Positions 13,633 through 15,880 of a stretch of DNA of 64,000 bases are shown here, piece by piece; positions within the stretch are counted from its first letter, which is position 1, and each line of letters opens with the position of its first letter. The position numbers were made by a program, and so were the translations under genes. The DNA is from Jatrophihabitans cynanchi (GTDB lineage Bacteria; Actinomycetota; Actinomycetes; Mycobacteriales; Jatrophihabitantaceae), in NCBI RefSeq assembly GCF_027247405.1, contig NZ_CP097463.1:3906001-3970000 (forward strand), written 5' to 3'. Under the pieces are notes generated by a model, which worked only from the letters and a program-made list of their open reading frames with translations, did no database searches and was not told where the DNA came from.

Positions 13633-14094
13633 TCAGGTCGGCCGCAGTGCGCGCGGCAGGTACGCGGCTCCCGCCCCCGCGGTCGCGGCGATGTCGGCGG
13701 GGTTGGAGATGGCGCACCGTTTGAGCGACAGGCAGCCGCAGCCGATGCACGAGTCCAGTCCGTCGCGTAGCTTCTCCAGCGCCGTGATCTGGTCGTCCAG
13801 CCGGCGGCGCCACGAACGGGACAGCCTGGTCCAGTCGGCCCTCGTCGGCGTGCGCCCGGCGGGCAGGGCGGCGAGCGCGCCGGCCACCTCGTCCAGGCTG
13901 AGGCCGACGTTGCGTGCTGCGCGGATGAACGCGAGCCGGCGAAGCACGCTACGCGCATAGCGCCGTTGTCCGCCGCTGGTGCGGCTCGCCGAGATCAAGC
14001 CTTCGCGTTCGTAGAAGCGCAGGGCAGACGCGGCGAACCCGCTGCGCGCGGCGACCTCACTGACGGTCAGCAGATCCGTCGTAGAAATCGCCAT
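13633..14094 (-). CDS. soxR: redox-sensing transcriptional regulator SoxR
   Basis: 153-residue MerR-family activator. The N-terminal winged helix-turn-helix (LLTVSEVAARSGFAASALRFYEREGL) is followed by a dimerisation helix and the 2Fe-2S motif C-x2-C-x-C-x5-C at about residues 116-127 (CIGCGCLSLKRC), identical in spacing to known SoxR. In actinobacteria SoxR typically answers redox-active compounds rather than superoxide alone. AAGGAG lies 6 nt before the ATG. It diverges from an SDR gene, and the shared 74-bp interval carries a 16-bp palindrome expected for SoxR binding. Confidence 0.93.
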   Translation of the reverse strand: MAISTTDLLTVSEVAARSGFAASALRFYEREGLISASRTSGGQRRYARSVLRRLAFIRAARNVGLSLDEVAGALAALPAGRTPTRADWTRLSRSWRRRLDDQITALEKLRDGLDSCIGCGCLSLKRCAISNPADIAATAGAGAAYLPRALRPT

Positions 14095-14109
14095 CAGATT
14101 CTCCTTGAC

Positions 14110-14125
14110 TTGAAGTTGACTTCAA
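14110..14125. promoter_or_regulatory. SoxR-type operator palindrome
   Basis: TTGAAGTTGACTTCAA is a 7-2-7 inverted repeat (TTGAAGT and ACTTCAA with a TG centre), close in form to the SoxR box, which pairs CTCAAGT with ACTTGAG. It lies between TTGACT (14105-14110) and TATAAC/AACGAT (14127-14135), as expected when a MerR-type regulator binds the spacer. The plus promoter would drive the SDR and QueA-like genes. Confidence 0.6.
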
Positions 14126-14168
14126 CTATAACGATGGCGGTTCGAACCGGAACCGTCTAGGAGAACCG

Positions 14169-14861
14169 ATGTCCACTGCACTGATCACCGGCGCGTCCCA
14201 GGGCCTGGGCCTGGCCCTCACAACAGCATTCGCCGAGCGCGGCTGGAACCTGGTGGTCGACGCCAGGGACGAGACCCGGCTGCGCGAGGCCGCCCGGACG
14301 CTGCCCACCGTGGTCGCGATCGTCGGCGACGTGACCGATCCGGGGCATCGCGAGGCGCTGGCGGCCGCGGCCGAGGTGTTCGGCCCGCTCGACCTGCTCG
14401 TGAACAACGCCAGCGAACTCGGGCCCAGCCCGCTGCCCGAGCTGGCGCGGTACCCGCTCGACGCGCTGCGCACGGTGTACGAGACCAACGTCGTCGCACC
14501 GCTGGCGCTCACCCAACTGCTGCTGCCTGCACTGCGGGCCGCGGGCGGGACCGTCGTGAACATCAGCTCGGACGCCGCGGTCGAGCCGTACCCGGGCTGG
14601 GGCGGCTACGGCCCCAGCAAGGCCGCTCTGGACCACGTGTCGGCGATCCTGGCCGCCGAAGAACCCGAACTGCGGGTCTTCGCGTTCGACCCGGGTGACA
14701 TGCGCACCGCGATGCACCAGCGCGCCTTTCCTGGCGAGGACATCAGCGACCGGCCGGCGGCGAGCACCGTCGTCCCGGCCGTCCTGCGGCTGTTCGACGA
14801 GCGGCCGGCGAGCGGTCGGTACCGCGCGGTGGACCTGCTCGCCGCCGAGGTGGCGCGGTGA
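14169..14861 (+). CDS. short-chain dehydrogenase/reductase
   Basis: 230-residue classical SDR. It has the NAD(P)-binding TGASQGLGLAL, the NNAS motif in LLVNNASELG, the catalytic Ser region (VVNISSDAA) and YGPSKAALD with the Tyr-x3-Lys pair. AGGAGA lies just before the ATG. The stop overlaps the GTG start of the QueA-like gene by 4 bases, so the two are translationally coupled. The palindrome upstream and the divergent soxR suggest redox induction. The substrate is unknown. Confidence 0.88.
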   Translation: MSTALITGASQGLGLALTTAFAERGWNLVVDARDETRLREAARTLPTVVAIVGDVTDPGHREALAAAAEVFGPLDLLVNNASELGPSPLPELARYPLDALRTVYETNVVAPLALTQLLLPALRAAGGTVVNISSDAAVEPYPGWGGYGPSKAALDHVSAILAAEEPELRVFAFDPGDMRTAMHQRAFPGEDISDRPAASTVVPAVLRLFDERPASGRYRAVDLLAAEVAR

Positions 14862-15880
14862 CGGCGCTTCAGTTCGAGCTGCCGCCGGAGCTGGCGGCGG
14901 CGCATCCGCGGGCAGATCGCGACCGGAGCCGCCTGCTGGTCGCCCGCCCGTCCGGCATCGAGCACGCCGTCTTCGCCGAACTGGAGGCGTTCCTGCACCC
15001 GGGCGACCTGCTCGTCGTGAACACGTCGGCAACCCTGGCGGCGGCGCTCGACGGCCGCCGAGCGGACGGCCGGGCGCTCACGGTGCACTTCGCGACGGCG
15101 TTGGACGACGGACGGTGGATTGTCGAACTGCGGCCGGCGGCGGACGCGACCGGACCGCTACCCGACATCGCGGCAGGTGAGCGGGTGCGACTACCGGACG
15201 GCGTCACGCTGACCGTGCTCGAGCCGGCGGCCCCGGCGCCGGGCGTGACCCGGCTGTGGCTCGCCGAGGTCGGGGTCGAGGGCGGTGTCGAGCACTACCT
15301 CGCCAGGCACGGCCGGCCGATCCGCTACGGCTACCTGGATGGGGACGTGCCGCTCGCGAACTACCAGACCGTGTTCGCGCGCGATCCCGGCAGCGCCGAG
15401 ATGCCGAGTGCCGGCCGACCGTTCACCGCGGAACTGGTTGCCGGGCTGGTCGCCGCGGGGATCGCGCTGGCGCCGATCACGCTGCACACCGGCGTCTCCT
15501 CGCAGGAGGCCGGCGAGCCGCCGATGCCCGAACGCTTCACCGTCCCGGCCGCCACGGCACGCCTGGTGAACTCGACGCGCGCCGCTGGCGGCCGGGTCGT
15601 CGCGGTCGGCACGACGGTGACCCGCGCGCTGGAGTCGGCAGCCGACCGCAGCGGCCGGGTACGCCCGGCCGCGGGCTGGACCGAGCTCGTCCTGGGCCCG
15701 AACCGCCCGGCCCGGGTCGTGGGTGGCCTGATCACCGGCTGGCACGCGCCGGGCGCCTCGCACCTGCAGCTGTTGCAGGCGGTGGCCGGCACGCCGCTGG
15801 TCGCCGCCGCGTACGAGGCGGCGCTGCGCGAGCGTTACCTGTGGCACGAGTTCGGCGACAGCTGCCTGCTGCTGCCGTGA
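14858..15880 (+). CDS. QueA-like S-adenosylmethionine:tRNA ribosyltransferase-isomerase family protein
   Basis: The 340-residue protein is related to QueA, which builds epoxyqueuosine on tRNA. Recognisable family landmarks are RADRDRSRLLV, the DLLVVNTSATLAAAL region (QueA usually has NDTRV-ARL), NYQTVFARDPGSAEMPSAGRPFT, and GGRVVAVGTTVTRALESAA. The motif usually written LHxGxGTFxPV is changed here to LHTGVSSQEAG. Other queuosine genes are absent from the window. Start GTG 14858 overlaps the SDR stop (GTGA). Genuine queuosine work is doubtful, and a different tRNA or small-molecule substrate is possible. The family assignment is firm but the function is not. Confidence 0.8.
   Translation: MTALQFELPPELAAAHPRADRDRSRLLVARPSGIEHAVFAELEAFLHPGDLLVVNTSATLAAALDGRRADGRALTVHFATALDDGRWIVELRPAADATGPLPDIAAGERVRLPDGVTLTVLEPAAPAPGVTRLWLAEVGVEGGVEHYLARHGRPIRYGYLDGDVPLANYQTVFARDPGSAEMPSAGRPFTAELVAGLVAAGIALAPITLHTGVSSQEAGEPPMPERFTVPAATARLVNSTRAAGGRVVAVGTTVTRALESAADRSGRVRPAAGWTELVLGPNRPARVVGGLITGWHAPGASHLQLLQAVAGTPLVAAAYEAALRERYLWHEFGDSCLLLP

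Follow-up and report, generated by a model that had tools for sequence, protein, structure and literature searches.

The soxR-SDR-QueAL locus and its predicted promoter

The stretch of DNA analysed here, referred to as the window, comprises 64,000 nucleotides of the chromosome of Jatrophihabitans cynanchi (bases 3906001-3970000 of NZ_CP097463.1, NCBI RefSeq assembly GCF_027247405.1; a one-contig chromosome of 4.5 Mb, 99.67% complete). Positions are counted from its first base. Between gcvT and hisN lies a block of three genes: soxR, a gene for a short-chain dehydrogenase/reductase (SDR) and a gene for a protein resembling the queuosine enzyme QueA, which is a member of a known enzyme superfamily in a new conserved context. 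We use the name QueAL for the QueA-like enzyme of the SDR-linked clade described below. The GTG start of QueAL and the SDR stop share 4 bp; the order of soxR, dyad, SDR and QueA-like genes given in a preliminary description of this DNA is confirmed. The features are as follows.

13633..14094, reverse strand: soxR, encoding a redox-sensing activator of the MerR family and oriented divergently to the operon (TIGR01950, 195.7 bits)
13714..13749, reverse strand: codons of the SoxR iron-sulphur cysteine cluster C-X2-C-X-C-X5-C (residues 116-127, CIGCGCLSLKRC)
14105..14110, forward strand: -35 element TTGACT overlapping the dyad (TTGAC in 37/41 and TTGACT in 31/41 aligned promoters)
14110..14125, forward strand: SoxR-type operator TTGAAGTTGACTTCAA, a perfect dyad whose core is conserved in soxR-SDR spacers
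14130..14135, forward strand: proposed -10 element AACGAT, 19 bp after the -35 element
14169..14861, forward strand: SDR oxidoreductase (PF00106, 126.9 bits)
14858..15880, forward strand: QueAL (PF02547, 260.9 bits), with a 4-bp overlap with the SDR gene, a clade of its own and a fold model
15482..15502, forward strand: LHTGVSS codons (residues 209-215), replacing canonical LHVGxGTF in the alignment with canonical QueA
15845..15859, forward strand: HEFGD codons (residues 330-334), replacing canonical (F/Y)-S-(F/Y)-G-D, with H330 and E331 fixed in 58/58 clade members

The SoxR protein passes the equivalog model TIGR01950 by a wide margin (195.7 bits against a cut-off of 116.9), and its cysteines follow the pattern C-X2-C-X-C-X5-C given for the SoxR cluster in the excerpted text of PMC4601167. 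The 16-bp palindrome that had been noticed between soxR and the SDR gene is perfect, its two arms (TTGAAGT and ACTTCAA, around a central TG) being 100% complementary. It is the sole match with at most three mismatches in the 64 kb. Shuffled windows gave a mean of 0.15 matches, with at least one match in 15 of 100, so that the dyad is moderately improbable by chance in the window alone. A chance origin is better excluded by conservation, since the operator core AAGTNNACTT recurs in 41 of 46 divergent soxR-SDR spacers (shuffled mean 0.055) and is absent from five.

The 41 core-bearing spacers share one layout, in which the -35 element is followed by a 19-bp spacer holding the dyad and then by a -10-like hexamer; the -35 element and the dyad are common to actinobacterial, Rhizobium and Acidobacteria loci. 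We take the over-long spacer to be of the MerR/SoxR type. The proposed -10 hexamer has A as its second base in 41/41 and T as its last base in 35/41 aligned promoters, and another candidate is TATAAC (14127-14132), which would leave a spacer of 16 bp. Redox control is thus well supported at the soxR-bearing loci, as far as a conserved operator can predict it. The locus resembles SoxR regulon promoters in its TIGR01950 SoxR, its cysteine cluster and a dyad between the -35 and proposed -10 elements across a 19-bp spacer, but differs from them in what is controlled: among the matches listed for open-access literature on SoxR together with QueA or ribosyltransferase-isomerase, no SoxR target of the SDR-QueAL type is named. 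As a separate observation, an ATG that might serve as the SDR start lies a few bases past the proposed -10 element in many aligned loci and would give a leaderless messenger.

Conservation of the SDR-QueAL pair and the QueAL clade

Conservation was followed in 394 genomes of the host's class (the class sample), with an actinobacterial set of 78 loci, and in a GTDB genome scan that gave at least 522 relatives, the best 80 of which are termed scan loci; the loci may come partly from the same or close species, so the locus counts are not independent. An SDR gene lies upstream of QueAL, within 3 kb and on the same strand, in 76 of the 78 actinobacterial loci, two of which (L053 and L057) have an MFS gene between SDR and QueAL. 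The two misses are L107, which is cut by a contig end, and L055, which has an MFS gene before QueAL and no SDR found at the locus. The commonest arrangement is the 4-bp overlap seen in the window (32/78 measured pairs), and a few of the remaining distances among these pairs are start-site artefacts. In 77 of the 80 scan loci the SDR gene immediately precedes QueAL in the same orientation, and the three misses lie 285-860 bases from a contig end. By title, the scan loci belong to Pseudomonadota, Actinomycetota, Myxococcota, Cyanobacteriota and Bacillota, with isolates among them, and, from metagenomes only, to Acidobacteriota, Chloroflexota, Verrucomicrobiota, Fibrobacterota, Dormibacterota, Eremiobacterota and archaea, where contigs may be misassigned. 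The preliminary description had left conservation of the trio to be checked in actinobacteria; the pair, and often the trio, proves to be conserved beyond them. Seven pattern matches to the window protein on viral contigs included no relative, and the PADLOC models matched neither the window QueAL, nor the window SDR, nor a Bacillus QueAL.

The distance matrices of SDR and QueAL correlate with r 0.903 over 148 pairs (0/500 permutations), which shows joint inheritance of the two aligned proteins rather than an interaction. A fusion of SDR and QueAL, sought as direct proof of coupling, was present at none of the tested loci. Among the 148 paired SDRs, the residues of the tetrad N107-S134-Y147-K151 are conserved in 141, 147, 148 and 146, respectively. 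The SDR also has the TGxxxGxG cofactor motif, and R33, kept in 147/148, suggests by the usual SDR rules a preference for NADPH. The enzyme shares its cofactor motif and N-S-Y-K tetrad with classical short-chain dehydrogenases, but is set apart by its inheritance together with QueAL; none of the 25 NCBIfam matches listed for the window SDR, of 208, reaches its cut-off.

QueAL itself scores below all three listed NCBIfam queA equivalog cut-offs (198 against 324, 160 against 267.45 and 101.1 against 588 bits). In a tree of 91 rows, built by a quick method with no bootstrap and with one odd plasmid row inside the canonical group, 58 QueAL rows fall on one side of a branch with an SH-aLRT support of 98, apart from 28 canonical rows. 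Residues N55, E225, G251-T252, R256, E259, H296 and G333-D334 (window numbering) are common to QueAL (58/58) and canonical QueA (28/28). By contrast, T59 (57/58) and Y157, E181, S184, G294, H302, H330 and E331 (each 58/58) are specific to the clade; the corresponding canonical residues are V, P, A, T, N, L, F/Y and S, respectively. QueAL departs from every one of the canonical motifs PLPP, AAPTAGLH, GTF, TNFH and F-(F/Y)-S-(F/Y)-GD; the loss of LHxGxGTF reported earlier, seen as LHTGVSS at residues 209-215, is one of several clade-wide replacements. These replacements may amount to a rebuilt acceptor side.

The structure model of the window QueAL (pLDDT 93.8, pTM 0.93) matches three solved QueA proteins, 1WDI, 1VKY and 1YY3, over its own length, with Z-scores of 27.8, 26.9 and 25.5, respectively. 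The root-mean-square deviations of 7.1-8.9 Å, with TM-scores of 0.54-0.58 by query length, suggest that the domains of the model are set at different angles. Matches below these three reach Z-scores of at most 7.4 and are partial, within residues 60-154 only. QueAL and QueA thus share PF02547, the full-length fold and the N, E, GT, R, E, H and GD residues, but differ in the separate clade with its own residues, in the sub-cut-off queA scores and in the presence of an SDR partner instead of tgt. Net charge was also compared in 19 same-genome pairs as a possible indicator of tRNA binding (p 0.03), but the result was discarded, since several of the predicted QueAL frames have starts placed much too far upstream, giving lengths of up to 645 aa.

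The SCO1804 protein of Streptomyces coelicolor is presumably a candidate member of the QueAL clade, judging from the gene order around it and from the neighbourhoods in the actinobacterial family f22. It is listed as QueA in the excerpted part of a survey (PMC4932002). Among the matches listed, no title or abstract start in the open-access literature describes the QueAL family or the SDR-QueAL pair.

A divergent soxR accompanies the pair at 30/78 actinobacterial and 14/80 scan loci, as well as at both annotated Rhizobium plasmid loci examined (R. phaseoli and R. etli p42f). Related kinases cluster at 22 scan loci, and 15 of the 22, all from Bacillota, contain C-X-C-X17-C, preceded by a C-X7 spacing in 2 and a C-X3 spacing in 13. 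The excerpted text of PMC4601167 describes AirS as a [2Fe-2S] sensor kinase with the cysteines C-X7-C-X-C-X17-C. In addition, a SufR-like regulator occurs at 7 scan loci, five of them with the gene ~1.6-1.8 kb before QueAL; the two of these seven proteins that were scanned score 118.1 and 127.6 bits, below the TIGR02702 cut-off of 178.8. Overall, redox sensing is a recurrent, not a universal, theme at SDR-QueAL loci.

Other neighbours are accessory genes. Immediately downstream of QueAL, 32 scan loci, each titled as Bacillota, have a gene of the VOC/glyoxalase kind (two of the proteins were Pfam-scanned), with a further, weaker VOC match at L164. An MFS transporter gene lies directly upstream of QueAL in three loci of the actinobacterial family f20 (L053:6373-7764 and its counterparts in L055 and L057).

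QueAL and the queuosine pathway

The statement of the preliminary description that no other queuosine gene accompanies QueAL can be extended from the window to the complete genome for four proteins. No TGT is present in it (14/14 positive controls detected), nor is QueG or QueH (QueD and QueE were not searched for), and QueF is missing from all 78 QueAL genomes, the host's included (8/14 controls detected). The host genome has one PF02547 protein, and no queuosine pathway was found elsewhere in it. The QueC model gives two partial matches, of 26.5 and 24.2 bits against a Pfam cut-off of 22, neither of which is QueC: one is an asparagine synthase (PF00733, 368.6 bits) and the other a QatC-type protein (PADLOC QatC, 206.6 bits). 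The frame end of the latter defence protein (L228:197-2547, around 2308570 of the chromosome) overlaps an IS4-type transposase gene. With the other queuosine genes searched for missing from the genome, QueAL very probably has a job different from queuosine synthesis, and its substrate is very probably new.

The wider genomes give a similar picture. Among the 394 genomes of the class sample, PF02547 occurs in 79 (78 over the cut-off) and TGT in 116, while both occur in a single genome (G361); the QueAL genomes of this sample thus differ from the usual QueA context, with TGT in 1/79 and QueF in 0/78. A Fisher test of PF02547 against TGT (p 1.3e-12) ignores relatedness and is not relied on. Within genus g2, among the genomes listed, five have QueAL only, 15 have TGT only and none has both. 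A side result is that 115 of the 116 actinobacterial TGT genomes lack a PF02547 protein, which suggests salvage of queuine or a precursor. Free preQ1, considered as the acceptor of QueAL, was rejected for actinobacteria because QueF is missing there.

The 30 further genomes behind the scan loci (four Actinomycetota, L131, L180, L190 and L206, the rest other phyla by title) contain PF02547 in 30, at least two such matches in 23 and TGT in 26. In 21 of them a full canonical QueA (342.8-487.4 bits) coexists with a lower-scoring QueAL, and TGT lies within ~350 bases of the canonical QueA gene in 16 of these 21. No QueAL gene adjoins TGT in the 30 genomes, the nearest lying ~15 kb away (G400).

Proposed pathway, alternatives and other QueA-like genes

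To our knowledge, QueA chemistry, in which a ribosyl unit from S-adenosylmethionine (SAM) is rearranged as it is transferred, is known only from queuosine. We propose that SDR and QueAL form a redox-induced two-enzyme pathway, in which QueA-type chemistry moves a ribosyl unit from SAM to something different from tRNA-preQ1, with a small molecule as the more likely acceptor; we give this proposal an even chance. Oxidised SoxR, bound at the promoter with the 19-bp spacer, would activate the SDR-QueAL operon. QueAL would then open SAM and transfer the rearranged ribosyl unit, of the epoxycyclopentane type, to an amine; the opening and the transfer are most likely kept because the QueA fold and the common QueA residues are retained. 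The acceptor would be most likely a small molecule rather than preQ1 in tRNA, and the NADPH-type SDR would reduce or oxidise either the acceptor or the product, in an order of steps that we can only suggest. Such a pathway might neutralise a redox-active compound or make a protective metabolite. A response to redox cycling through SoxR is well supported by sequence at the soxR loci, while the QueAL transfer and the SDR step are what we infer. The VOC genes of Bacillota and the MFS genes of three loci lean towards a small molecule.

Several observations weigh against this proposal. soxR stands beside the pair in none of the 17 f20 and none of the 24 f22 loci; a histidine kinase with a GAF domain is divergent in 38 of these 41 loci, and the four f20 kinases inspected lack a CxC cluster. 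A regulator of the iron-sulphur type is present at 66 of 158 loci at most (30 and 14 with SoxR, 15 with the AirS type and 7 with SufR-like proteins), and the SoxR core lies upstream in only 4 of 109 loci that lack a local soxR (shuffled mean 0.4). Redox control of the pair, as first described, is well supported at the soxR loci with their conserved operator; at many other loci the regulator is unrecognised or not of the iron-sulphur type. The VOC and MFS neighbours are restricted to certain lineages. The three structural relatives in the PDB are by name QueA structures or an uncharacterised protein, with no stated ligand, and the excerpted text of a 2005 review (PMC1282579) knows of no QueA-SAM complex at that date. 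Finally, five genomes (G361 of the class sample and, among the 30 further genomes, G400, G416, G420 and G423) combine QueAL with a TGT-family protein and have no canonical QueA. G423 belongs to Nocardia panacis, and two others, G416 and G420, are assemblies of archaea, in which TGT may serve archaeosine.

The main rival to a small-molecule acceptor is a tRNA acceptor of another kind, and an acceptor in RNA retains some probability. QueAL would then move the SAM-derived unit to another amine-bearing nucleoside of tRNA (or rRNA) and the SDR would finish the modification, so that redox control would tune translation. QueA of known function acts on tRNA, the folds of canonical QueA and QueAL match over the full length, and the wide occurrence with one QueAL gene per class-sample genome (two genomes have the gene in two pieces) fits a housekeeping role. 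On the other hand, no tRNA-modifying enzyme was recognised among the clustered neighbours listed, ARAGORN found no tRNA gene at 5000-26000 of the window, the one stretch scanned, and small molecules are a better fit than RNA modification for the control by SoxR, for the VOC and MFS partner genes and for the presence of the genes on plasmids in Rhizobium. We regard this RNA modification as rather unlikely.

QueAL might instead have given up ribosyl transfer for another SAM- or nucleoside-dependent reaction (as a lyase, a hydrolase or in methionine elimination), or might do nothing beyond binding. The alteration of all five canonical motifs listed above leaves room for such a change, but the residues common to all compared QueA proteins remain in QueAL. 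The residues new to QueAL are just as invariant, an argument for an enzyme whose reaction is defined, and we consider a loss of transfer unlikely. That QueAL is an ordinary queuosine QueA drifted in sequence is highly improbable: its 260.9 bits with PF02547, the full-length fold match, the annotation of relatives as ribosyltransferase-isomerases and the five genomes in which a TGT-family protein accompanies QueAL in the absence of canonical QueA would fit, yet the idea is contradicted for the host genome by the missing TGT, QueF, QueG and QueH. The lack of QueF in 78 genomes, the separate clade and the full canonical QueA alongside in 21/30 further genomes also speak against it.

If the SDR-QueAL pathway exists as proposed, a widespread QueA paralogue with a fixed reductase partner would represent a second use of QueA chemistry, redox-controlled at many loci. 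More tentatively, and as a possibility we hold to be somewhat less than probable, QueAL would be the first QueA-type SAM ribosyl transferase outside tRNA queuosine. Together with the SDR it would build a carbocycle from SAM on a small molecule, or attach one to it, as part of a response to redox stress found in about eleven phyla of bacteria and perhaps in archaea. The extra VOC protein of Bacillota might then stand in for QueG or QueH and open the epoxide. The VOC superfamily includes epoxide-opening enzymes. A correction of annotations would follow, as the Rhizobium members are labelled tRNA ribosyltransferase-isomerases and queuosine would be predicted in error from names of this kind. With its small size and, here, its own regulator alongside, the operon has a function that is directly testable.

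Plasmids carry further QueA-like genes, which, like QueAL, are relatives of QueA that lack the customary tgt neighbourhood to the extent that annotation shows, but which have other partner genes and fall outside the QueAL clade in the tree. On Salmonella pIndS104-CTX (L112:2683-5996), a QueA-like gene with a long tree branch adjoins genes for a MarR protein, an FAD-dependent oxidoreductase and an MFS transporter. In Geobacillus pGeo12a (L122:1-1626) and S. salivarius pSaLI10 (L113:4995-9193), the QueA-like gene has PqqD-family genes nearby, together with one for diaminopimelate decarboxylase or for thymidylate synthase, and the two QueA-like proteins pair in the tree (SH-aLRT 82) outside the canonical and QueAL groups. 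On S. meliloti GR4 pRmeGR4a (NC_019846.2, L110:6986-12749), a QueA-like gene shares a run with two radical SAM genes and one for diaminopimelate decarboxylase, an arrangement that looks like a biosynthetic cluster and may make use of QueA-type chemistry.

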